Shown here in pieces: positions 36,998 to 48,970 of a stretch of DNA of 64,000 nt (positions are counted from its first letter, which is position 1; each line of letters opens with the position of its first letter). Source of the stretch: an uncultured Bacteroidia bacterium (GTDB lineage Bacteria; Bacteroidota; Bacteroidia; Bacteroidales; UBA932); contig CACWOH010000010.1 in the NCBI GenBank assembly GCA_902762435.1, forward strand, positions 1 through 64,000, written 5' to 3'. Below the pieces are notes generated by a model. It was not told the origin of the DNA and searched no databases. It worked only from the letters and a program-made list of their open reading frames with translations. A program made the position numbers and the translations under genes.

Positions 36998-37387
36998 ATG
37001 AATAAAATCAAAAATCTCGCGGATCTCCGCAAGATCAAAGAGGGCATGCAAGGCAGGATGTCGATGCGCGAAAAGAGCGACTCCTCCGAAGCCATCATTC
37101 AAATCAAGGTCGGAATGGCCACCAGCGGTATCGCCTCGGGTGCGAAAGAGACCATGAACTACCTCATCACCGAATTGGACAAGCGCCAGATCAAGGCGCT
37201 CGTGATGCAGGTCGGCGACATGGGCTACAGCTACGCCGAGCCCACCGTCGAGGTCACCATCCCCGGCAAGGACCCCGTCGTGTTCGGAGACGTCAAGATC
37301 CCCCGCGCGAAGGAAATCATCGAGAAGTACATCATCGGCGGTGAACTGATCGAGGGCATCCTGCCGGCCAACTACAGATCCATCTAA
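36998..37387 (+). CDS. Thioredoxin-fold [2Fe-2S] ferredoxin homologue without cluster cysteines
   Basis: A 129-residue protein related to the small [2Fe-2S] ferredoxin-like subunits that accompany NAD-linked hydrogenases. The C-terminal half (about 35-125) has the thioredoxin-like fold pattern KVGMATSGIASGAKETMNYL, ALVMQVGDMGYSYAEPTVEV and EIIEKYIIGGELIEG. In cluster-binding relatives the corresponding positions carry four Cys; here they are Ser, Asp, Gly/Tyr and similar, and the whole protein contains no cysteine. It therefore cannot bind a [2Fe-2S] cluster the usual way. First gene of the operon, 17 bases before the flavoprotein gene, with a strong RBS. Structural subunit or regulator are both possible. 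Confidence 0.82.
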   Translation: MNKIKNLADLRKIKEGMQGRMSMREKSDSSEAIIQIKVGMATSGIASGAKETMNYLITELDKRQIKALVMQVGDMGYSYAEPTVEVTIPGKDPVVFGDVKIPRAKEIIEKYIIGGELIEGILPANYRSI

Positions 37388-37404: not shown

Positions 37405-39198
<1,794 letters not shown>

Positions 39199-39212: not shown

Positions 39213-40988
39213 ATGGATACGATCAAATTGACTATAGACAACCGGGCAGTGGAAGTACCCAAGGGTACTACCGTTTTGAAGGCTGCCGAGCAGATGGGCA
39301 TCAAGATCCCCACCCTCTGCAATTTCGAACTGGACGGCCTCGCGCTCAAGAACCACCCCGGCGGATGCCGCGTGTGCGTGGTCGAGATCGCCGGCCGCCG
39401 CAACCTGGCCCCCGCCTGTATCACCGAGTGTATGCCGGACATGGTCGTCAAGACCAACTCGTTCCGTGCGCTCAACGCCCGCAGGACCGTCCTTGAGCTG
39501 ATGCTCAGCGACCATCCCAACGACTGCCTCCAGTGCCCCAAGAGCGGCAAGTGCGAGCTCCAGGCCCTGGCCGCCGACATGGGCATCCGCGAGATCCCCT
39601 TCAAGGGCAAGCAGTCCCAGTACCCGATCGAGCTTTCCCCGTCGATCGTCCGGGACGCCAACAAGTGCATCATGTGCCGCCGTTGCGAGTCCGTGTGCCA
39701 CGAGTACCAGAGCGTAGGTGCCATCGGCGCCGTCGAACGCGGCTTCCCCGCCGTGGTCTCCACCGCCTTCGGAAAGCACCTCATCGACACCAACTGCGTC
39801 TTCTGCGGCCAATGCGTCGCGGTGTGCCCCACCGGCGCCCTCGCGGAGGTGGACAACACCGGCAAGATCCTGCGCGACATCGCCAATCCCGAGGTCAAGA
39901 CCTGCGTCCAGGTGGCTCCCGCCGTGCGCGTGGCCCTGGGCGAAGAGTTCGGTATGCCCGCCGGCAGCATCGTCACCGGCAAGATCGCGGCCGCGCTCAA
40001 GGCCATCGGCTTCGACTACGTGTTCGACACCGACTGGTCCGCCGACCTTACCATTATGGAGGAAGGCACCGAGGCCGTCGGCCGCTTCAAGAAATTCCTC
40101 GCCGGCGACAAGGATGTCAAGATCCCCATCATGACCTCCTGCTGCCCCGCCTGGGTCAACTTCTACGAGAAGTTCTATCCCGAGTTGCGCGAGTATCCGT
40201 CCACGGCCAAGTCGCCGCAGGGTATGTTCGGCGCCACCGCGAAGACCTATTTCGCGGACAAGATCGGCGTCCCCCGCGAGAAACTCATCTGCGTGTCCGT
40301 GATGCCTTGCGTCGCGAAGAAGTACGAGTGTGAACGCGAGGAACTCGGCGTGAACGGCGATCCCGACGTGAACTACTCCATCACCACGCGTGAGCTGGCC
40401 CGCCTGATCAAGATCTGCAACATCGATTTCGCAAGCCTCCCCGAGGCCGAGTTCGACTCGCCGCTGGGTACTTCCACCGGCGCGGCCGTCATCTTCGGCG
40501 CCACCGGCGGCGTGATGGAGGCCGCGCTCCGTACGGCCTACGAGGTCCTGACCGGCAAGACCCTTCCGAGGATCGACTTCGAGGAGGTCCGCGGCCTGGA
40601 GGGCATCCGCGAGGCGACCATCCCCATCCCGGGCGTAATCGACCTGAAGGTAGCCGTCGCCTACGGCCTGAAGAACGCGCGCGGCATCATGGAACAGATC
40701 AAGGCAGGCAACTGCCCGTACCACTTCGTGGAGGTGATGGCCTGCCCGGGCGGCTGCATCGACGGCGCCGGCCAGCCGTACCACCACGGCGACGCTTCCA
40801 TCATCAAGGCGCGTCACGCGGCCATCTACGAAGCCGACAGGCGTATGCCGCTCCGCAAGTCGCACGAGAATCCCGAGATCCAGGCGATCTACAAGGAGTT
40901 CTACGGCGAGCCTTGCTCCGAGAAGTCGCATCACCTGCTGCACACGCACTACTTCGACAAGAGAATGAAGTTTGACCTTGAAAAATAA
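39213..40988 (+). CDS. hydA: [FeFe] hydrogenase catalytic subunit
   Basis: Reduces protons to H2 or oxidises H2; 591 residues. An N-terminal [2Fe-2S] domain (CNFELDGLALKNHPGGCRVC), a His-Cys [4Fe-4S] region (HPNDCLQCPKSGKCELQ), two [4Fe-4S] motifs (CIMCRRCESVCH and CVFCGQCVAVCPTGAL), then the H-cluster domain: TSCCPAW, MPCVAKKYE and MACPGGCIDGAGQP. All four H-cluster cysteines and the proton-relay Cys are present. The third motif has GAGQP where GGGQP is common. Subunits before and after are NuoF- and NuoE-like, the standard trimer. Confidence 0.97.
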   Translation: MDTIKLTIDNRAVEVPKGTTVLKAAEQMGIKIPTLCNFELDGLALKNHPGGCRVCVVEIAGRRNLAPACITECMPDMVVKTNSFRALNARRTVLELMLSDHPNDCLQCPKSGKCELQALAADMGIREIPFKGKQSQYPIELSPSIVRDANKCIMCRRCESVCHEYQSVGAIGAVERGFPAVVSTAFGKHLIDTNCVFCGQCVAVCPTGALAEVDNTGKILRDIANPEVKTCVQVAPAVRVALGEEFGMPAGSIVTGKIAAALKAIGFDYVFDTDWSADLTIMEEGTEAVGRFKKFLAGDKDVKIPIMTSCCPAWVNFYEKFYPELREYPSTAKSPQGMFGATAKTYFADKIGVPREKLICVSVMPCVAKKYECEREELGVNGDPDVNYSITTRELARLIKICNIDFASLPEAEFDSPLGTSTGAAVIFGATGGVMEAALRTAYEVLTGKTLPRIDFEEVRGLEGIREATIPIPGVIDLKVAVAYGLKNARGIMEQIKAGNCPYHFVEVMACPGGCIDGAGQPYHHGDASIIKARHAAIYEADRRMPLRKSHENPEIQAIYKEFYGEPCSEKSHHLLHTHYFDKRMKFDLEK

Positions 40989-40995
40989 TTGTACC

Positions 40996-41481
40996 ATGTG
41001 TGGACCCCAGATAAAAATCAGTGAAGCCAATTACTTGAAAATCAAGGAAATCTGCGCTTCCTTCAACAACAATCCGGGCGAGCTGATCAATATCCTGCAC
41101 AAAACGCAGGACCACTTCGGCTACCTGCCCGAGGAAGTCCAGCAGGTCGTGGCGGACTGCCTCGGAATCCCGGTCGGCAAGGTGTACGGCGTCGTGTCCT
41201 TCTACAGCTTCTTCACGATGAAGCCCAAGGGCAAGTACGCCATCTCCGTCTGCCTCGGAACCGCCTGCTACGTCAAGGGAGCCGAGAAGGTGCTCGACGC
41301 GCTCAAGAAGGAGCTCAACATCTCCGAGGGCGGCGTGACCGAGGACGGCAAGTTCTCCCTCGACGTCCTGCGCTGCGTGGGTGCCTGCGGCCTGGCCCCG
41401 GTCATGACCATCAACGGCAAGACCTACGGCCGTCTCGTCCCCGAGCACGTCAAGGAGATCCTGGCGGAGTACGCTGACTAA
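40996..41481 (+). CDS. hydC: NuoE-like [2Fe-2S] subunit of the hydrogenase
   Basis: A 161-residue thioredoxin-like [2Fe-2S] protein passing electrons between the flavin and hydA. Four cysteines in the NuoE arrangement: SVCLGTACYVKGA and RCVGACGLAP. The N-terminal helices (ILHKTQDHFGYLPEEVQQVV) are typical. The ATG follows hydA by 7 bases; an upstream TTG would overlap hydA and is less likely. Confidence 0.95.
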   Translation: MCGPQIKISEANYLKIKEICASFNNNPGELINILHKTQDHFGYLPEEVQQVVADCLGIPVGKVYGVVSFYSFFTMKPKGKYAISVCLGTACYVKGAEKVLDALKKELNISEGGVTEDGKFSLDVLRCVGACGLAPVMTINGKTYGRLVPEHVKEILAEYAD

Positions 41482-41503: not shown

Positions 41504-41531
41504 CGGGCCGGCCCTTCCCAGAGCCGGCCCG
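41504..41531. terminator. GC-rich hairpin after hydC
   Basis: CGGGCCGGC (41504-41512) pairs perfectly with GCCGGCCCG (41523-41531). It lacks a T-run and may attenuate expression of the following six genes relative to the hydrogenase. Confidence 0.5.
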
Positions 41532-41547
41532 TGAAATTCCATAGAAA

Positions 41548-41892
41548 ATGAAAATTTCGGAAATCGCAAAACTCATCGACGGGGAGCTCGTCGGAGCTCC
41601 CGCAGACGATACCTACGAGGTCAGGAAGGCCTTCGCATCCGACCTGATGAGCGACGTGCTCCGTTTCTCGATGGAAGAGACGGTGCTGATCACCGGCCTG
41701 TGCAACAACCAGACGATGCGCACCTCGGAGATGTCCGACCTGCGCGTGGTGGTGATCGGCCGCGACAAGCAGCCCGACGAGGAGATGCTCGAACTGGCCG
41801 AAGAGCTGGACATCACCCTCATCAAATCCCGCTACAGCATTTTCAAAATCAGCGGCATCCTGTACGGCGCCGGCATAGAACCCCTTTATTGA
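41548..41892 (+). CDS. DRTGG-domain protein 1
   Basis: A 114-residue single-domain protein of the DRTGG type, a fold also found beside CBS domains and in phosphotransacetylases; ligand unknown. Pattern: MKISEIAKLIDGELV start, ASDLMSDVLRF, VVIGRDKQPDEEMLELAEEL. It begins the second block of the hydrogenase region, after the hairpin, 2 bases before the next gene. A relative is encoded at 43676-44005. A sensory or ligand-binding role is inference. Confidence 0.8.
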   Translation: MKISEIAKLIDGELVGAPADDTYEVRKAFASDLMSDVLRFSMEETVLITGLCNNQTMRTSEMSDLRVVVIGRDKQPDEEMLELAEELDITLIKSRYSIFKISGILYGAGIEPLY

Positions 41893-41894
41893 TA

Positions 41895-42308
41895 ATGCAT
41901 TACACATTTGACATAGAGCGCGGTAACTTCGCCGATGCCGGCCAGGCCTCCAGCAGCGTCAAGCGTGCGCTGAAGCACCTCGGCGTGGATCCCGTCAGCA
42001 TCAAGCGGACCGTGGTGGCGCTCTTCGAAGCGGAGATCAACGCCATCGCGCACGCCTACGGCGGCCGGATCGACGTCGACATCGACGACGGGAAGATCGT
42101 GATGGTGGTGGCCGACCAGGGCCCCGGCATCCCGAACATCGACCTCGCCATGCAGGAGGGCTGGTCCACCGCTTCGCCCCAGGTCCGCGAGATGGGCTAC
42201 GGCGCCGGAATGGGCCTGCCGAACATCAAGAAGAACACCGACGAACTGAAAATCGAGACGGAAGTGGGCGTAGGGACCACCGTCACCATGACCGTCTATC
42301 TTGCCTGA
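41895..42308 (+). CDS. RsbW-like ATP-binding protein
   Basis: A 137-residue GHKL-fold ATPase of the anti-sigma factor/serine kinase kind. N-box VALFEAEINAIAHAYGG, G1 ADQGPGIP, G2 YGAGMGLPNIKK. No dimerisation or receiver domain and no sigma factor gene nearby. It follows the DRTGG gene by 2 bases and precedes the Fe-S protein by 4. It may phosphorylate or sequester a partner in this module; the partner is unknown. Confidence 0.83.
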   Translation: MHYTFDIERGNFADAGQASSSVKRALKHLGVDPVSIKRTVVALFEAEINAIAHAYGGRIDVDIDDGKIVMVVADQGPGIPNIDLAMQEGWSTASPQVREMGYGAGMGLPNIKKNTDELKIETEVGVGTTVTMTVYLA

Positions 42309-42312
42309 CGAT

Positions 42313-43674
42313 ATGGCCGAAAGAGAAACCTATTTCAAACATTCGCTCAAGGTCAACCTCGACCGCTGCCAGGGCTGCACCACCTGCATGCGCTCCTGCC
42401 CCACCGGCGCCATCCGCATCCGGGGCGGCAAGGCGGTCGTGAACGACAACAAGTGCGTGGACTGCGGACAGTGCATGAAGATCTGCCCGCACAAGGCGAT
42501 CTACATCCAGCAGGACGACTTCGCGCAGATCAAGGACTACAAGTACCGGGTCTGCCTCGTTCCGGCCACCTTCATCGGCCAGTTCGAGGAGAAGTACCGG
42601 ACGCGGGAGATCTACGCCTGCCTCAAGAAACTGGGTTTCACCCACATCTATGAGGTGGAGCACGAAGTGGGCTACATAATCGACCTGTACAACCAGTATA
42701 TGGAGGCCCATCCGGAGATCCGGACCTTCATCTCCCCGTACTGCCCCGCCGTGATCCGGCTCATCCAGGTGCGCTTCCCCTCGCTGGTGGACAACGTCAT
42801 CCACGTGCGCGCCCCCTTCGAGCTGGCGGCCCGCGTCATCATCCGCCGCCTGATGGACGAAGGCGCCCCGCGCGAGGACATCGGCGTCTTCTACATCACC
42901 CCCTGCGCCGCCAAGATCGCCGCGGTCAAGTACCCGGTGAGCAAGAAGGAAACCTGCATCGCGGGCGTCCTGAACATGGACTTCCTCTACAACAAGGTGC
43001 AGCTGATGCTCCACGAATCCGGCAACGACGCCGAGGCCATCAACCACGCCCTCACCGCACCCGACGTGCTGTGGCCCCTCGCGGGCGGGGAGGCCTGCCA
43101 TTTCCGCGGCTCGCAGTACGCGGTGGACGGCCTGCAGAACGTCCTGAACTTCCTGGAGAAGCTCGAGGACGAGGCCGTGGACGCCGAGGGCCTGGTGGAG
43201 ATGCGCATCTGCGACCAGGGCTGCGTGGGCGGCGTGCTGGCCACCAACAACCGCTTCGTGGCGCGCAAGCGGCTGGAGAGCCGGGCGCGGCTCTTCCAGC
43301 AGCAGAACCGCACCAAGACCCGCTACCAGCGTTACAACGACCCCGAGTTCTGCCGCTGGATCAACGAGCAGATGGAGATCCCCGAAATCAAGCCCCGCTC
43401 GATCTACAAGCTGGACGACAACTTCGCGGAGGCCTTCAAGATGGCCGAACGGATGAAGAAGATCGAAAAGGCGCTGCCGGGCGTGAACTGCTCGGCCTGC
43501 GGCGCGCCTTCCTGCGCCGCCCTGGCCGAGGACATCGTGCGCGGCGACGCCAAGATGGACACCTGCATCTTCATCAACCGCCACTCGCAGGCCTCGGAGG
43601 ACGCCATCCGCAGCATCTGGGGAGACCGCGTCCGCACCAAGGAAATCAACAACGACCCTGAAAACAAACGATAA
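42313..43674 (+). CDS. Hydrogenase-like Fe-S protein with altered H-cluster motif
   Basis: A 453-residue cytoplasmic protein. Two [4Fe-4S] motifs at the start (CQGCTTCMRSCPTGAI, CVDCGQCMKICPHKAI). The central domain resembles the [FeFe] hydrogenase C-terminal domain, with SPYCPAVIRL in place of TSCCPAW, TPCAAKIAAVK for the second motif and CDQGCVGGVLATNNR for the third. The four H-cluster cysteine positions appear kept, but the proton-relay Cys is Tyr. The C-terminus has a CSACGAPSCAALAEDI cluster motif with one more Cys. It probably senses redox state or H2 instead of turning over quickly; that is inference. Start at ATG 42313, 4 bases after the ATPase gene. Confidence 0.85.
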   Translation: MAERETYFKHSLKVNLDRCQGCTTCMRSCPTGAIRIRGGKAVVNDNKCVDCGQCMKICPHKAIYIQQDDFAQIKDYKYRVCLVPATFIGQFEEKYRTREIYACLKKLGFTHIYEVEHEVGYIIDLYNQYMEAHPEIRTFISPYCPAVIRLIQVRFPSLVDNVIHVRAPFELAARVIIRRLMDEGAPREDIGVFYITPCAAKIAAVKYPVSKKETCIAGVLNMDFLYNKVQLMLHESGNDAEAINHALTAPDVLWPLAGGEACHFRGSQYAVDGLQNVLNFLEKLEDEAVDAEGLVEMRICDQGCVGGVLATNNRFVARKRLESRARLFQQQNRTKTRYQRYNDPEFCRWINEQMEIPEIKPRSIYKLDDNFAEAFKMAERMKKIEKALPGVNCSACGAPSCAALAEDIVRGDAKMDTCIFINRHSQASEDAIRSIWGDRVRTKEINNDPENKR

Positions 43675-43675
43675 C

Positions 43676-44005
43676 ATGACAGTCAAGGACATCATTGAAA
43701 AACTCAACCTGGAGTGCCTCAACGAGGCCAACCTCGATACGGAAGTCACCGGCGCCTACGCCTCCGACCTGCTCAGCGACGTGATGGGCAACGCCCGGAG
43801 CGGGCAGGTCTGGATCACCATGCAGACCCACAAGAACGTCACGGCCATCGCTTCCCTGCGGGACCTCCCCGCCGTGATCATCGTCCGCGGCGGCGTGCCC
43901 GACGAGGACATGCTGGAGCACGCCAAGGACGAGGACGTGTGCATCCTCGTCAGCCAGGAAGCCACCTTCCAGGTCTGCGGGAAACTCTACGAGATCCTCA
44001 AGTAG
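43676..44005 (+). CDS. DRTGG-domain protein 2
   Basis: A 109-residue DRTGG-type protein, paralogous to the one at 41548-41892 (GAYASDLLSDVMGNARSG against KAFASDLMSDVLRF). It starts 1 base after the Fe-S protein gene and precedes the PHP gene by 9 bases. Ligand unknown. Two DRTGG genes flanking the hydrogenase-like gene suggest a hetero-oligomer or two sensing steps. Confidence 0.8.
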   Translation: MTVKDIIEKLNLECLNEANLDTEVTGAYASDLLSDVMGNARSGQVWITMQTHKNVTAIASLRDLPAVIIVRGGVPDEDMLEHAKDEDVCILVSQEATFQVCGKLYEILK

Positions 44006-44014
44006 CGCTTCCGG

Positions 44015-44749
44015 ATGCAGTTCCGCGCCGACATGCACATCCACTCGGTGCTCTCCCCCTGCGGCGACATCGACATGAGCCCCTCCGCCATCGTGGCGAC
44101 GGCGAAGGAGCGCGGGATGGACATCATCGGCCTGACCGACCACAACACCACCCTCAACGCCGACGTCACGCGGCGGCTGGGGGAGAAGGTCGGCCTGCAC
44201 GTGCTGATGGGCGCGGAGGTGACCACCAAGGAAGAGGTGCACTGCCTGGGCTTCATGCCCACGGTGGAGAAACTCGCCGAGTTCCAGGCCTTCCTGGACT
44301 CCCGCGTGGTCTTCTTCGAGAACGACCCGGACAAGTTCGGCTACCAGCTGGTGGTGGACGAGGACGAGAACGTGCTGGACGAGGTTCCGCACCTGCTGAT
44401 CAACGCCCTGGACCTGCCGATGCTGGAGCTCCAGCAGAAGGTGTACGAACTGGGCGGCATCTTCATCCCCGCCCACATCGACCGGTCTTCCTTCAGCCTT
44501 TCCTCCCAGCTGGGCTTCGTGCCGGACAAGCTCCGCTTCCACGCGATGGAGCTCAGCTATCACTGCAAACGGAACAACTACAAGTTCCTGGACGACTGCC
44601 CCTGGTTCAGCGACTTCAACTTCATCCAGAGCAGCGACGCGCACTTCGTGGAAGACATCGCCAAGATATACAGCGTCCTGGAGATGCCTTCCTTCAGTTT
44701 CGACAACTTCAAGGACGCCCTCCGACCGGGCGAGCAAGTCATCCTCTGA
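44015..44749 (+). CDS. PHP-domain phosphoesterase
   Basis: A 244-residue metal-dependent phosphoesterase of the PHP family. Metal ligands are visible: MHIHSVLSPCGDID, LTDHNTT, GAEVT, PAHID and SSDAHF. The substrate is not known; relatives include nucleotide and histidinol phosphatases. It sits between a DRTGG gene and a GHKL ATPase gene, so it may make or remove a small phosphorylated signal in this module. It begins 9 bases after the DRTGG gene and ends 1 base before the next. Confidence 0.87.
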   Translation: MQFRADMHIHSVLSPCGDIDMSPSAIVATAKERGMDIIGLTDHNTTLNADVTRRLGEKVGLHVLMGAEVTTKEEVHCLGFMPTVEKLAEFQAFLDSRVVFFENDPDKFGYQLVVDEDENVLDEVPHLLINALDLPMLELQQKVYELGGIFIPAHIDRSSFSLSSQLGFVPDKLRFHAMELSYHCKRNNYKFLDDCPWFSDFNFIQSSDAHFVEDIAKIYSVLEMPSFSFDNFKDALRPGEQVIL

Positions 44750-44750
44750 T

Positions 44751-45284
44751 ATGAAAAGCCTCGATCTCCACATCATCGACATCACCCACAACTCCATCCG
44801 GGCGGGTGCCACGCAGATCACCATCGAAATGGAGGACAGCGCCGCGCGCGACCTGCTGTCCATCAAGATCATAGACAACGGCTGCGGCATGCCGGAAGAC
44901 ATGATCGCGGCCATCAACGACCGCTTCTACTCCTGCCGCAAGGAACGCAAGATCGGGATGGGCATCGCGCTGCTGAAGTTCCACGCGCAGATGTGCAACG
45001 GCAACTTCTACCTCAAGTCGAAAGTGGGCGAGGGAACGGAAATCTACGCTTCCTACCAGCGTTCGCACATCGACCTGCAGCCCAAGGGCGACCTGGCCGG
45101 CTGCTTCGCCAACTTCATCTGCCAGTACCAGGACATCAACTTCATCATCCGCTACATTACGGACGAAGACACCTTCGAGCTGAGCACGGCGGACGTCAAG
45201 GAGGTGTTCGAGGGGATGAACCTCAACGACTACGAGATCATCCATAACCTCACGGAACTCATCCGCGAGAACATCGGTTCGTAA
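44751..45284 (+). CDS. GHKL ATP-binding protein
   Basis: A 177-residue protein. Residues 1-100 are a histidine-kinase-type ATPase fold: N-box IDITHNSIRAGAT, G1 IDNGCGMP, G2 IGMGIALLKF. The rest (about 101-177) is an unrecognised alpha/beta region. No histidine phosphotransfer domain is present. Last gene of the module; the convergent hydF ends 3 bases away. Confidence 0.83.
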   Translation: MKSLDLHIIDITHNSIRAGATQITIEMEDSAARDLLSIKIIDNGCGMPEDMIAAINDRFYSCRKERKIGMGIALLKFHAQMCNGNFYLKSKVGEGTEIYASYQRSHIDLQPKGDLAGCFANFICQYQDINFIIRYITDEDTFELSTADVKEVFEGMNLNDYEIIHNLTELIRENIGS

Positions 45285-45287
45285 GAA

Positions 45288-46358
45288 CTACGGGATGGAA
45301 ATCCGCCCCAGGATGCCGTTCAGGGCCGCCAGGGCGATGCCGTAATTGGTGATGGGCACTCCCGCAAGGAGTGCCTTCCTGATGCGGGAGCGCACCAGGC
45401 GGGCGTTCGCCACGCAGGCGCCGCAGTGAACGATCAGGCTGTAGGGCGAGAGGTCCTCCGGGAAGTCGTTCCCGGCGGCGATGTCCACCCGGAGACTCCC
45501 CCCGGCCCGCTTGCGCAGCAGCGCGGGAATCTTCACCCGGCCGATATCCTCCGTGTCCGGCACGTGGGTGCAGGCCTCCGCGACCAGCACCCGGTCGCCG
45601 GGCCGGAGCGCGTCGATGGCCCGGGCGCCTTCCACGAACACGCGGACGTCGCCCTTGGCGGCCGCCAGCAGCACGGAGAAGGAGGTAAGGGGGCAATCTT
45701 CGGGAAGCGCGCCGTTCACCTTGGCGAACACCTGCGAATCCGTGATCGTCAGGTCAGGAAGACGGGAGAGGCTCTCCAGGGCCGCCGGCAGCGAATCCGG
45801 CGTGCAGCAATGCGGCACGCAGCCCCGGTCCAGCAGTTCGCGCAGCACCTGCACCTGCGGCAGGATGAGGCGGCCTTTCGGCGCCTCCGAATCCTGCGGC
45901 ATCACCAGCAGCACGCTGCTGCCGGCCTGCACGAGGCTTCCGGTCAGGAACTTCTGCTCCTCGCGGGGGGCGGCCGCCACCAGGCGCTCCAGCAGCGACG
46001 CGGTGCTCTCTCCGCGGGTATACCGGATAACGGGAATGCCCGCCTGTGCTGCCAATGTCCCGAAATCCGGGCCCTTCACTCCGGGCGCGTCCAGGATGAC
46101 GGCTATATCTGTTTCGTCCAGGATGGCGCGGGTCAGGCGCTCCCGCTCGGCGCCCAGCGCGCTCACGTCGCCCAGGCCGGCGGTGTCGATCAGCACGCAG
46201 GGACCCAGGCCGGGCAGCTCGATGACTTTCCGGACCGGGTCCGTGGTGGTGCCGGGAAGCGGGCTCACCAGGGAGACCTCCTGCCCGGCCAGGGCGTTGA
46301 CCAGGGTCGATTTCCCGCTGTTGGTGGGGCCGAAGAACGCGATGTGCAGCCGCTCCAT
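45288..46358 (-). CDS. hydF: [FeFe] hydrogenase maturation GTPase HydF
   Basis: The scaffold that assembles the 2Fe subcluster and delivers it to HydA; 356 residues, somewhat shorter than the usual ~400. GTPase motifs: GPTNSGKSTLVNAL, PGTTTDPV, DTAGLGD. The C-terminal cluster-binding region has EACTHVP and HCGACVANAR, the family's Cys-x-His and Cys-x-x-Cys pair. It starts 1 base after hydG in the same operon. Convergent with the signalling-like module. Confidence 0.94.
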   Translation of the reverse strand: MERLHIAFFGPTNSGKSTLVNALAGQEVSLVSPLPGTTTDPVRKVIELPGLGPCVLIDTAGLGDVSALGAERERLTRAILDETDIAVILDAPGVKGPDFGTLAAQAGIPVIRYTRGESTASLLERLVAAAPREEQKFLTGSLVQAGSSVLLVMPQDSEAPKGRLILPQVQVLRELLDRGCVPHCCTPDSLPAALESLSRLPDLTITDSQVFAKVNGALPEDCPLTSFSVLLAAAKGDVRVFVEGARAIDALRPGDRVLVAEACTHVPDTEDIGRVKIPALLRKRAGGSLRVDIAAGNDFPEDLSPYSLIVHCGACVANARLVRSRIRKALLAGVPITNYGIALAALNGILGRISIP

Positions 46359-46359
46359 C

Positions 46360-47775
46360 CTAGAAACGGAAATCGTGTCCGCCCGCCTCGATGGCCTTCA
46401 GGTGATCCCGGGTAATCTCGCGGGTGCGCTCCAGGGGGATGTCGGAAAGGCTGCGCTCGATGAGCGCTTCGCCCAGGGCCCGCGTCTCGGGCGAGGCGTA
46501 ATCCACCAGGTACTCCTTCAGGGTCATCAGCGCGTTGGGCGTACAGCAGAGATGGATCTTGCCGCTCTTGCACAGGCTCATGAAACGGTCGCCGGTGCGG
46601 CCCTCGCGGTAGCAGGCCGTGCAGAAGCTGGGGATGTGGTCCTGCTCCAGCAGCCAGCGCACCACCTCGTCCAGCGAACGGGTGTCGGAGACGTCGAACT
46701 GCGAGGTCTCGTCGTGGCGCTCCTCCGTCGTGTAGCCGCCCACGCTGGTGCGCGAGCCGCCGCTGATCTGGGAGATGCCGCTGTCCAGCAGGAGGCTGCG
46801 CATCCGGGCGGACTCGCGGGTGGAGATGATCATGCCGGTGTAGGGAACCGCGACGCGCAGCACGGCCACGATCTTGCGGAACACCGCATCCGGAAGGGCG
46901 TCCGGGAAGCTGTCCAGGGAGATGTCGTCCGCCGGGCAGATGCGCGGCATGCTGATGGTGTGCGGACCCACGCCGAAGCGGGCCTCGAGGTGCTCGGCGT
47001 GCATCAGCAGGCCCACCATCTCGTAGCGGTAGCCGCTCAGGCCGAACAGCACGCCCACGCCCACATCGTCGCAGCCGCCTTCCTGGGCGCGGTCCATCGC
47101 CTCGGTGTGCCAGTCGTAGTCGCTCTTGGGGCCTGTGGGATGCAGCTGCTTGTACTGCTCCTTGTTGTAGGTCTCCTGGAAGAGGATGTAGGTGCCGATG
47201 CCGGCGGCCTTCAGTTTCCGGTAGGACTCGACGTCCGTGGCGGCGATGTTCACGTTGACGCGGCGGATGGAGTTGCCGCCCTCGTTCACGGAATAGATGG
47301 TCTTGATGGAGTCGAGGATGTATTCCAGGGGGTTGTGCACGGGGTCCTCGCCCGCCTCCAGCGCCAGGCGCTTGTGGCCGGTGCGGATCAGCGCACGCGT
47401 CTCCGCCTCGATCTCGGCCTGCGAGAGCTTCTTGCGCGGGATGCTGCGGTTCTTGGCGTGGTACGGACAGTACACGCAGCCGTTGATGCAGTAATTCGAC
47501 AGGTACAGCGGGGCGAACAGCACGATGCGGTTGCCGTAGAACTTATGTTTGATCTCCCGGGCCAGGGCGTAGATCTTCTCTTCGAGGACGGGATCGTCGC
47601 AGTCCAGCAGGATGGCCGCTTCCCGGTGGGTCAGGCCCTTGCAGAGGGCGGCCTTGGCGAGGATTTCTTCCACGCGGGCGGGGTTCTTGCTCTGAACCTC
47701 CGCCTCGGCGAGCGTTTCCAGGATCTCTTCGTGATTGATGAAATCGTCGGCGTGGACGGATAAAGGATTATACAT
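46360..47775 (-). CDS. hydG: [FeFe] hydrogenase maturation radical-SAM enzyme HydG
   Basis: Cleaves tyrosine to give CO and cyanide ligands of the H-cluster; 471 residues. Radical-SAM cluster motif NYCINGCVYC; C-terminal cluster motif CTACYREGRTGDRFMSLC. Other signatures are SRTSVGGY and ALEAGEDP. It heads hydG-hydF and is divergent from hydE. Confidence 0.97.
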   Translation of the reverse strand: MYNPLSVHADDFINHEEILETLAEAEVQSKNPARVEEILAKAALCKGLTHREAAILLDCDDPVLEEKIYALAREIKHKFYGNRIVLFAPLYLSNYCINGCVYCPYHAKNRSIPRKKLSQAEIEAETRALIRTGHKRLALEAGEDPVHNPLEYILDSIKTIYSVNEGGNSIRRVNVNIAATDVESYRKLKAAGIGTYILFQETYNKEQYKQLHPTGPKSDYDWHTEAMDRAQEGGCDDVGVGVLFGLSGYRYEMVGLLMHAEHLEARFGVGPHTISMPRICPADDISLDSFPDALPDAVFRKIVAVLRVAVPYTGMIISTRESARMRSLLLDSGISQISGGSRTSVGGYTTEERHDETSQFDVSDTRSLDEVVRWLLEQDHIPSFCTACYREGRTGDRFMSLCKSGKIHLCCTPNALMTLKEYLVDYASPETRALGEALIERSLSDIPLERTREITRDHLKAIEAGGHDFRF

Positions 47776-47881: not shown

Positions 47882-48970
47882 ATGACACCCGCCTTCGAAG
47901 ACATACTCCGCAAACCGGACCTGGACCGGGAAGAGATCAAGCTCCTCCTTTCGGCCGAAGGGGACCGGATGAAAGCGCTGCTCCGGCGCGCCCTGGAGGT
48001 CAAGCTCGCCCGGCTGGACAACTGCGTCCACCTGCGCGGCCTGATCGAATACGGCAACGTCTGCGAGAAGGACTGTCTGTACTGCGGCCTGCGGAGCGGG
48101 AACGGGAACGTGGAGCGCTACTGCCTCAGCGACGAAGAGGTGCTCTCCTGCGCCCGCCTCGCCCACGAGCTGGGCTACGGGTCGGTCGCCCTGCAGAGCG
48201 GGGAGCGCAGCGACCCCGCATTCATCGCCAAGATCGAAAGGCTGGTCCGGGAGATCAAGAAGATCGACGGCGGCAGCCTCGGCATCACCCTGTCGCTGGG
48301 CGAACAGAGCGACGACACCTACCGGCGCTGGTTCGAGGCCGGCGCGCACCGCTACCTGCTGCGCATCGAATCTTCCACCGAAGAACTCTACTACAAGATC
48401 CACCCCCGGAACGGAAAGCACAGCTTCCAAAAGCGCATCGCCTGCCTGGAAAGCCTGAAGCGCATCGGCTGGCAGACCGGAACCGGGGTGATGGTGGGCC
48501 TGCCTTTCCAGACCCAGGACCACCTGGCGGACGACCTGCTGTTCTTCAAGCGCATGGACGTGGCGATGGTCGGGCTCGGCCCCTACATCCCCCATCCCGA
48601 CACGCCCCTGTACCGCCTCCGGGACCTCGTGCCGCCGGCGGCCGAGCGCATGGACATGACGCTCCGGATGATCGCTGTCCTGCGCCTTATGATGCCGGAA
48701 ATCAACATGGTGGCGGCCACCGCGAACCAGACGGTCGATCCCCAGGGCCGGGAAAAGGCCATCGCCGCGGGCGCCAACGTAATCATGCCGAACCTGACGC
48801 CCGGAGAATATCGCGAGAGTTATTTCATCTATCCGGACAAGGCCTGCGTCAAGGACCGGCCGGACCAGTGCCGGAGCTGCCTGGACATCCGCCTGGCCGC
48901 CATCGGCCACCGGATCCAGTACAACGCCTGGGGCGACTCGCTCGCCTTCACGAAGAAAGCGAAGGGATAA
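47882..48970 (+). CDS. hydE: [FeFe] hydrogenase maturation radical-SAM enzyme HydE
   Basis: A radical-SAM enzyme that helps form the dithiomethylamine bridge; 362 residues. Cluster motif NVCEKDCLYCGLRSGN; other family parts are LQSGERSD and PFQTQDHLADDL. All three maturases are thus encoded together. It is monocistronic and convergent with queF (3 bases apart). Confidence 0.97.
   Translation: MTPAFEDILRKPDLDREEIKLLLSAEGDRMKALLRRALEVKLARLDNCVHLRGLIEYGNVCEKDCLYCGLRSGNGNVERYCLSDEEVLSCARLAHELGYGSVALQSGERSDPAFIAKIERLVREIKKIDGGSLGITLSLGEQSDDTYRRWFEAGAHRYLLRIESSTEELYYKIHPRNGKHSFQKRIACLESLKRIGWQTGTGVMVGLPFQTQDHLADDLLFFKRMDVAMVGLGPYIPHPDTPLYRLRDLVPPAAERMDMTLRMIAVLRLMMPEINMVAATANQTVDPQGREKAIAAGANVIMPNLTPGEYRESYFIYPDKACVKDRPDQCRSCLDIRLAAIGHRIQYNAWGDSLAFTKKAKG

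Follow-up and report, generated by a model that had tools for sequence, protein, structure and literature searches.

A conserved six-gene module beside an [FeFe]-hydrogenase operon of an uncultured Bacteroidales bacterium and its possible role as a redox relay

Locus and module genes

The window analyzed here is a stretch of 64,000 nucleotides from an uncultured Bacteroidia bacterium of the order Bacteroidales (GenBank assembly GCA_902762435.1, contig CACWOH010000010.1, positions 1 to 64,000 of the forward strand). Downstream of the structural genes of an NADH-dependent [FeFe]-hydrogenase, an enzyme that bifurcates electrons between ferredoxin and NAD, it carries six short genes, referred to below as the module, which encode two DRTGG-domain proteins (DRTGG1 and DRTGG2), an RsbW-like ATPase, an iron-sulfur (Fe-S) protein, a PHP phosphoesterase and a GHKL ATPase. 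A sequence-only reading had described these genes as a signalling-like unit. They are real, intact and in the order which that reading gave, and all six open reading frames (ORFs) are open on the + strand across 41548-45284, with internal gaps of 2, 4, 1, 9 and 1 bases. Gene identity, gene order, conserved active-site residues, fusions, co-occurrence, partner range and pocket residues were determined by computation. The module consists of the following genes:

41548..41892 (+): DRTGG1, a stand-alone DRTGG-domain protein with an (A/S)SDL(L/M)SDV motif (PF07085, 24.2 bits)
41895..42308 (+): RsbW/SpoIIAB-like ATPase (PF13581, 54.8 bits), with N-box E45/N49 and the G boxes intact
42313..43674 (+): Fe-S protein (PF02906, 75 bits; Fer4 twice; PF04060), with a C-terminal Cx2Cx4Cx16C motif and an altered pocket (Y143, R298)
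43676..44005 (+): DRTGG2, a second DRTGG/HprK-N-like protein with an SDLLSDVM motif (PF02603, 29 bits, above the cut-off; PF07085, 19.3 bits)
44015..44749 (+): PHP phosphoesterase (PF02811, 36.5 bits), in which the nine metal-ligand positions are all conserved
44751..45284 (+): GHKL ATPase domain with a C-terminal extension and without a histidine-acceptor domain (PF02518, 49.8 bits)

The Fe-S gene starts with ATG, and an in-frame TTG is located at 42301. Matches to DUF7705, PAC2 and similar weak Pfam matches were below cut-off and were discarded.

Loci, genomes and sources

Two sets of loci were compared. The first comprised the best 80 of at least 457 confirmed loci (at least 589 pattern matches) found via the window-type protein, and is made up mostly of Bacteroidales, with Desulfoluna, Tepidanaerobacter, Sphaerochaeta and members of the Clostridia. 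The second comprised 80 loci, 79 with an intact Fe-S reading frame, from a phylum that is called Bacillota here because Tepidanaerobacter belongs to it. Loci are labelled L and genomes G, and residue counts for module proteins refer to distinct sequences. Genome surveys covered 393 Bacteroidales genomes, at least 95 % complete and sampled from the larger order, and 299 sampled genomes of the Bacillota-type phylum. In the Bacteroidales survey a "group A" HydA is a protein whose best PF02906 E-value lies below about 1e-80, and three of the Fe-S matches are weak (G136, G193 and G429; 1e-88 to 1e-92) and could stem from more distantly related proteins. Papers are cited by PubMed Central number, and statements on them apply to the parts of their text that were available.

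Conservation and fusion of the module genes

With fusions allowed, all six genes lie on one strand with their order preserved in 37 of the 80 first-set loci, which are mostly from Bacteroidota, and in 57 of 79 Bacillota loci. Ten relatives of the window that carry the Fe-S gene (L038-L047) have the same gene order within the reach of their contigs, several of which are cut by contig ends. The RsbW-like gene lies directly upstream of the Fe-S gene in 71/73 first-set and 75/77 Bacillota loci with room for it, an adjacency that exceeds chance. In most Bacillota loci hydC is found between the PHP and GHKL genes and is followed by hydD-hydB-hydA.

Neighbouring module genes are also found as single proteins, namely DRTGG1-RsbW (12 distinct sequences, 11 of them from one small class), Fe-S-DRTGG2 (2 distinct sequences) and PHP-GHKL (5 distinct sequences). 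These three fusion types split the six genes into three non-overlapping pairs of neighbours, DRTGG1 with RsbW, Fe-S protein with DRTGG2, and PHP with GHKL, the last of which bears out an earlier suggestion that the phosphoesterase is paired with an ATPase. The core formed by the H-domain and the C-terminal cluster is fused to HisKA-HATPase in L048 and L181 and to MCPsignal in L194, so a protein architecture of this kind is used elsewhere to drive outputs of kinase or receptor type.

The Fe-S protein

The Fe-S protein of the window has an [FeFe]-hydrogenase fold (best match E-value 3.8e-17, template modelling (TM) score 0.61 by query), with two N-terminal 4Fe-4S motifs followed by an H-domain (Fer4 twice, PF02906) and four predicted cluster sites. 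The C-terminal Cx2Cx4Cx16C motif is exact at C393-C418 and is present in 166/166 distinct relatives. Of the [4Fe-4S]H cysteines, C144 and C198 are conserved in 90/90 sequences, and C300 and C304 in 89/90 (one gap). A Pfam scan of the protein gave no match to PAS, the domain expected of group C (M2f) HydS proteins. Land et al. (PMC8163306) describe group D (M2e) as having the C-terminal Cx2Cx4Cx16C motif, no PAS domain, loss of the residue equivalent to C299 of the hydrogenase CpI, and S/T at the M353 position. The window protein has Y143 at the C299 equivalent, T196 at M353 (S/T as in group D) and R298 at M497, and it fits the group D putative sensory [FeFe]-hydrogenases, its features having been matched to the published description and not to an alignment with TamHydS, the group D protein studied by those authors.

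The residues around the H2 site differ between the two phyla. The C299 equivalent is F/Y in 74/74 Bacteroidota copies versus A/S in 84/90 Bacillota copies, and the M497 equivalent is R/K in 74/74 Bacteroidota copies versus Q or L in 69/90 Bacillota copies. The glycine before the fourth cysteine (G303) is G in 90/90 Bacillota copies and S or G in Bacteroidota copies. The Desulfoluna and Sphaerochaeta copies have F at C299, with R and D, respectively, at M497. As bulky and charged residues in the H2-site pocket could exclude the [2Fe] subcluster, the pocket of the window lineage may be closed to it. The K358 equivalent, a residue that speaks against such closure, is kept in 73/74 Bacteroidota and 85/90 Bacillota copies. 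It is Q in L171, L172 and L174, from related genomes with a formate dehydrogenase partner and without HydA, and this change was probably one event.

ATPases, PHP and DRTGG proteins

The nearest solved structure to the RsbW-like protein is the anti-sigma F factor SpoIIAB (E-value 4e-12), and E45, N49, D74, G76 and G78, which correspond to the SpoIIAB N-box Glu/Asn and both G boxes, are conserved in 88/88 distinct sequences. The protein scores below the NCBIfam equivalog cut-offs for anti-sigma F (TIGR01925, 56.9 versus 135 bits) and anti-sigma B (TIGR01924, 26.4 versus 155 bits). In the PHP protein, D6, H8, H10, D42, H43, E68, H76 and H154 are conserved in 60/60 sequences, and D208 and H210 in 59/60 (one gap); we take these residues to be metal ligands. 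GHKL residues N14, D42, G44 and G46 are present in all distinct sequences that are ungapped there (49 or 50 of 51); the ATP site of this protein is normal, and a phospho-acceptor domain is absent.

The DRTGG labels given to two of the proteins need qualification, as both score below the PF07085 gathering score of 25.2 bits. The label of DRTGG1 is backed by its AlphaFold model (predicted local distance difference test score 95), which matches 2ioj (TM 0.85) and 3l2b (TM 0.73-0.78). An SDL(L/M)SDV motif is common to DRTGG1 and DRTGG2, and its second serine is invariant (S35 in 85/85, S34 in 62/62) and may serve in phosphorylation or ligand binding. The ATP-binding residues and the metal-binding residues of PHP are intact, which, together with the fusions and the group D membership of the Fe-S protein, agrees with the earlier view that the module is regulatory and does not supply enzyme subunits.

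Co-occurrence with [FeFe]-hydrogenases

Among the 393 Bacteroidales genomes the Fe-S protein was found in 153, HydF in 253 and another PF02906 protein in 282. Another [FeFe]-hydrogenase is present in 152/153 genomes with the Fe-S protein versus 130/240 without it, a group A HydA in 149/153 versus 106/240, and HydF in 135/153 versus 118/240. Counted by genus, another [FeFe]-hydrogenase accompanies the Fe-S protein in 83/83 cases versus 65/113 where the protein is absent (Fisher p 2e-14). In the 299 Bacillota-type genomes the corresponding figures are 111/115 and 122/184. Co-occurrence of the module with hydrogenases is thus close to obligate, and the earlier statement that these families accompany hydrogenases in other anaerobes was borne out in the survey that had been proposed to check it.

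HydF was not detected at E-values up to 1e-60 in 18 of the 152 Bacteroidales genomes with both the Fe-S protein and another [FeFe]-hydrogenase (G076, G039 and 16 more), and HydA of G076 (Parabacteroides gordonii, L116/L259) and of G039 (L260) keeps all H-cluster motifs despite the missing HydF match. The missing HydF had suggested that P. gordonii has the module without a hydrogenase; this was ruled out, as HydD-HydB-HydA-HydC lie about 15-22 kb further on the contig.

Partners other than hydrogenase

The description of the module as lying beside the [FeFe]-hydrogenase proved too narrow. Four Bacillota genomes with the Fe-S protein and without HydA (G509, G603, G625 and G609) all contain the whole module. 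In G509, G603 and G625 it is accompanied by HydC-HydD-HydB with formate dehydrogenase upstream, and in G609 by HydD-HydC-HydB, then a Rex-like protein and NfnA/NfnB; no PF00374 match was found in G609. At six loci (L186, L187, L208, L229, L233 and L234) HydBCD occurs with a NuoG-like/molybdopterin gene that is split by an in-frame TGA, as expected for selenocysteine, which points to HydBCD-type selenium formate dehydrogenases. The module is followed by rnfC, rnfD and rnfB in L212 and L228, and in L247 rnfC and rnfD are located 1.6-2.5 kb past HydB, beyond a Rex-like gene and a lyase gene.

Among the 62 Bacillota loci that have 7 kb of sequence to either side, 40 have HydA and HydB, 5 formate dehydrogenase and HydB, 1 Nfn and HydB, 6 HydB only (some of these possibly cut by contig ends), 1 Nfn/Rex without HydB, 2 HydS only and 7 none of these. 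The 40 first-set loci with the same room divide into 22 with HydA and HydB, 1 with HydS only and 17 with no sought partner genes. On the Fe-S tree the partner labels change at least 11 times among 74 labelled of 93 rows, the other 19 being uncounted (18 without a partner label and 1 with two), and branch support is by the Shimodaira-Hasegawa-like approximate likelihood ratio test (SH-aLRT) only.

Hydrogenase, formate dehydrogenase, Nfn and Rnf partners share the exchange of electrons between ferredoxin and NAD(H). Because the module is also found at loci for formate dehydrogenase, Nfn and Rnf, H2 is ruled out as its general input, and ferredoxin/NAD redox is the more likely common one. The sequence-only reading had left open whether H2 or redox state is sensed; H2 as a general input is contradicted by these partners and by the bulky and charged pocket of the window lineage, and the redox alternative is preferred. 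The Bfu family of bifurcating enzymes is laid out in PMC9304861.

Proposed function

There is perhaps an even chance that the module is a split, PAS-less redox relay linked to enzymes which exchange electrons between ferredoxin and NAD(H). The electron input, switching, kinase-like output and activity, target and direction of control that we infer for it are as follows. Electrons arriving through the two N-terminal clusters would determine the state of the other clusters of the Fe-S protein, in the H-domain and at the C-terminus. Among Bacillota copies the H-domain can probably still accommodate an H-cluster, so that a response to H2 would also be possible; in the window lineage it probably holds the [4Fe-4S] part only and would report the ferredoxin redox state. 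Since neither a kinase nor a PAS domain is fused to the Fe-S protein, the reading of its state would fall to its operon neighbours. The first output would be the RsbW-like ATPase with DRTGG1, in a partner-switch-like triad in which DRTGG1 would occupy the antagonist position and the Fe-S protein that of the target. Such a triad is proposed because the RsbW, PHP and GHKL residues are intact, the DRTGG serine is invariant and the order DRTGG1-RsbW-Fe-S resembles the spoIIAA-spoIIAB-sigF or rsbV-rsbW-sigB layout. DRTGG2 with the PHP-GHKL pair, which in Bacillota is placed inside the hydrogenase operon, would form the second output. A phosphate signal within the relay is plausible, and the protein families would allow the writing and removal of phosphate that the sequence-only reading had proposed. 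The likely effect would be that the ferredoxin/NADH balance tunes how strongly HydBCD-type complexes are expressed or how active they are.

A more far-reaching form of this proposal is put forward tentatively. Rather than being a hydrogenase accessory, the module may control flavin-based electron-bifurcating (HydBCD/Bfu) complexes and Rnf in general according to the ferredoxin/NAD redox poise. Its sensor would be a former sensory hydrogenase, which in Bacteroidota would lack the [2Fe] site and act as a pure Fe-S switch, and its signal would pass through a STAS-free partner switch that uses DRTGG as antagonist. Gene order and fusion suggest that the module would also supply the missing output machinery of the group D sensory hydrogenase. 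The authors of PMC8163306 ask how the signal of that protein is passed on and note an adjacent histidine-kinase-like ATPase; the three fusions name likely partners and make the question testable as three protein pairs. If the ferredoxin/NAD balance and not H2 is sensed, the module would place H2, formate and NADPH metabolism under common control in fermenters, acetogens and Bacteroidales of the rumen and gut, settings in which the yield of hydrogen and the supply of methane are determined, and the Bacteroidota copies would show a hydrogenase fold turning into a plain Fe-S switch.

Several observations weigh against this proposal. The retention of K358 in all but one of the Bacteroidota copies is unexpected if the [2Fe] site has been lost. 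Genome G037 (L046, L258; 99 % complete) contains HydF, on a contig of 8.9 kb, and the Fe-S protein is the only PF02906 protein found in it; HydF without another [FeFe]-hydrogenase by search would be in keeping with maturation of an H-cluster in the Fe-S protein. The 17 first-set loci without sought partners are mostly bare DRTGG1-RsbW-Fe-S triads, so the second triad (DRTGG2, PHP and GHKL) need not lie close by in every case. Classical RsbW switches include STAS and PP2C partners; the module showed neither, and no genome-wide search for them was made. Apart from the genus count, the co-occurrence statistics ignore kinship. An argument that the Fe-S protein cannot hold an H-cluster because the maturases are missing was dropped, since most Bacteroidales genomes with the protein have HydF and G037 points the opposite way.

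Alternative explanations

The Fe-S protein could instead sense H2 with a complete H-cluster and drive the ATPases. The group D relative TamHydS interconverts H+ and H2 after maturation by means of a synthetic [2Fe] cofactor (PMC8163306), the Bacillota copies mostly have A/S at C299, the invariant G303 and the K358 equivalent, and G037 has HydF alongside the Fe-S protein as its sole PF02906 protein found. The same module is nevertheless found at formate dehydrogenase, Nfn and Rnf loci, every Bacteroidota copy has F/Y at C299 and R/K at M497, and the K358 equivalent is Q in three loci with a formate dehydrogenase partner and no HydA. An H2 sensor is unlikely, although worth keeping in view; it is a better candidate for the Bacillota copies and less likely for the window.

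Somewhat less probable again is an assembly or maturation machine for the HydBCD core, in which the Fe-S protein would be an H-domain-derived scaffold or carrier, comparable to CIAO3/Nar1 for cytosolic clusters, and the ATPases chaperones. Gene linkage to HydBCD is strict whatever the third substrate, and the cluster cysteines are conserved with the [2Fe] pocket altered. In addition, Acetomicrobium mobile has HydD, HydP and HisK genes for which a role in maturation and/or regulation is assumed (PMC8880783). Against this, expression of the three Thermotoga maritima genes in Escherichia coli yields HydABC that contains its cofactors, [2Fe]H excepted (PMC9499530). Group A HydA also occurs in 106 of the 240 Bacteroidales genomes that lack the Fe-S protein, and five genus relatives have a HydA above the NF040763 cut-off with the Fe-S protein absent. 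No separate hydD was found in these five, some of whose contigs end near hydC, and their HydB is longer (614 to 650 versus 597 amino acids). The recombinant HydABC and the hydA-bearing relatives without the Fe-S protein weaken the assembly explanation, which keeps some probability for the HydD-containing subtype.

It is improbable that the Fe-S protein is a loosely bound hydrogenase subunit in an accessory electron-transfer unit, modulated by the other five proteins. Its four predicted cluster sites and the likely co-transcription would suit such a role, but two ATPases, a PHP hydrolase and two DRTGG proteins carry no electron carrier, and HisK and HydD are absent from the purified A. mobile enzyme as described in PMC9304861 and PMC8880783. 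That the genes are unrelated, held together by ancestry and engaged in separate tasks is already disfavoured and hardly credible, since, although the first triad occurs without the second nearby in many loci, gene order is kept between phyla, three neighbour fusions exist and partners change around a constant module.

Relation to known systems

Among the closest described counterparts is TamHydS of Thermoanaerobacter mathranii (PMC8163306, PMC6984386), which shares with the Fe-S protein the two N-terminal 4Fe-4S motifs, the H-domain, the Cx2Cx4Cx16C motif, the absence of PAS, the loss of C299, the change of M353 to S/T and a gene that adjoins those of a bifurcating group A hydrogenase and of a histidine-kinase-like ATPase. 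TamHydS binds a synthetically supplied H-cluster, and a sensory role has been proposed for it (PMC8163306). The window copy differs in having Y at C299, R at M497 and CDQGC for CxGGC, and the other module genes are not described in the available text of those papers. The group C (M2f) HydS/HfsB proteins of T. maritima, Ruminococcus albus and Thermoanaerobacterium (PMC10055695, PMC5707799, PMC11837493) likewise have an H-domain, a proposed sensory role and a position beside other hydrogenases, whereas the window protein has no PAS or kinase domain and its output lies in separate proteins. In hfs mutants of Thermoanaerobacterium saccharolyticum, a sensory-type hydrogenase operon alters the fermentation products (PMC5707799).

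Similarity to the SpoIIAB/RsbW anti-sigma kinases extends to the nearest solved structure, the N-box and G boxes and the antagonist-kinase-target gene order; unlike those switches, the module has a DRTGG protein in place of the STAS antagonist and contains no sigma factor or PP2C. DRTGG1 shares its fold with the DRTGG regulatory domain of CBS-type pyrophosphatase (3l2b) and with AF1212 (2ioj), from which the module proteins differ in being stand-alone and in carrying the SDL(L/M)SDV motif in both copies.

In hydCEDBA of Acetobacterium woodii and the HydD/HydP/HisK genes of A. mobile (PMC7242416, PMC8880783, PMC9304861) a GHKL-type gene and HydD lie beside HydC/HydB, in the order of L175-L191, and gene order suggests that A. 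woodii hydE is the GHKL gene; the full six-gene module is not described there in the text available. Halanaerobium hydrogeniformans Halsa_1862-1871 (PMC4237134) is listed with a matching gene set, in the order of the Bacillota loci, annotated as hydrogenase, NADH dehydrogenase, ferredoxin-like protein, histidine kinase, NuoE, PHP, two Fe-S genes, anti-sigma kinase and one ORF. The listing is annotation only, and the available text gives no module, function or wider survey. The module function was not found described in the open-licence literature, subscription papers being mostly outside the scope of the search. The earlier statement that no function is described holds within that literature, but the family of the Fe-S protein does have a named and studied relative in TamHydS. 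A suggested partner, the T. maritima operon TM1420-1426, was set aside, as a search for these locus tags gave no match.

Neighbouring genes of the window

The module is flanked by the following genes and features:

36998..37387 (+): hydD, 129 amino acids, 0 cysteines, cofactor-free and thioredoxin-fold-like, with no Pfam family match
37405..39198 (+): hydB, NADH/FMN subunit (NCBIfam NuoF-type matches)
39213..40988 (+): hydA, NADH-dependent [FeFe]-hydrogenase of group A6 by NCBIfam (NF040763, 849 bits, cut-off 765)
40972..41481 (+): hydC, [2Fe-2S] NuoE-like subunit (PF01257, 178 bits)
41504..41531 (+): 9-bp G+C-rich hairpin without a T tract, between hydC and the module (fold z-score -2.87)
45288..46358 (-): hydF maturase, convergent (TIGR03918, 436 bits, cut-off 325.55)
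46360..47775 (-): hydG maturase (ORF; kin adjoin hydF in relatives)
47882..48970 (+): hydE maturase (ORF; kin adjoin hydG/hydF in relatives)

The H-cluster motifs of hydA are intact (TSCCPAW, MPCVAKKYE and MACPGGCIDG). HydD was named from its gene order and size by comparison with A. woodii HydD (PMC6288185), and its relatives in Bacillota loci are placed between GHKL and HydB. The names hydG and hydE are presumptive, given by family and by kin beside the other maturase genes in relatives, and for hydG also by gene place. The module had been placed directly after hydC with gaps of 1-9 bases, which is correct inside the set; the gap between hydC and DRTGG1 is 66 bases and contains the hairpin. 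The hairpin was also found, with a changed loop, in 3/3 genus relatives that were folded (L038, L040 and L058), and it may separate hydABC expression from module expression. Sigma-70 promoter and terminator scans of the window stretch gave no signal above shuffled sequences.

Other loci

At L063, L066, L069, L081, L082, L097, L110 and L123 a second HydC-HydB-HydA cluster with a short HydB (385-393 amino acids) is located upstream of the module on the same strand. L048-L051 are other Bacteroidales hydrogenase clusters with HydS-like proteins beside HydCBA; that of L048 is the HisKA-HATPase fusion, and in the HydS-like paralogue at L050:2231-4174 most of the H-cluster cysteines are gone. The Bacillota loci L192, L193, L190 and L194 contain only RsbW-Fe-S, with DRTGG1 present or not, followed by PAS-GGDEF proteins in L192 and L193 and by a HydS-type protein in L190 and L194, which in L194 is the one that carries the MCP signalling domain.

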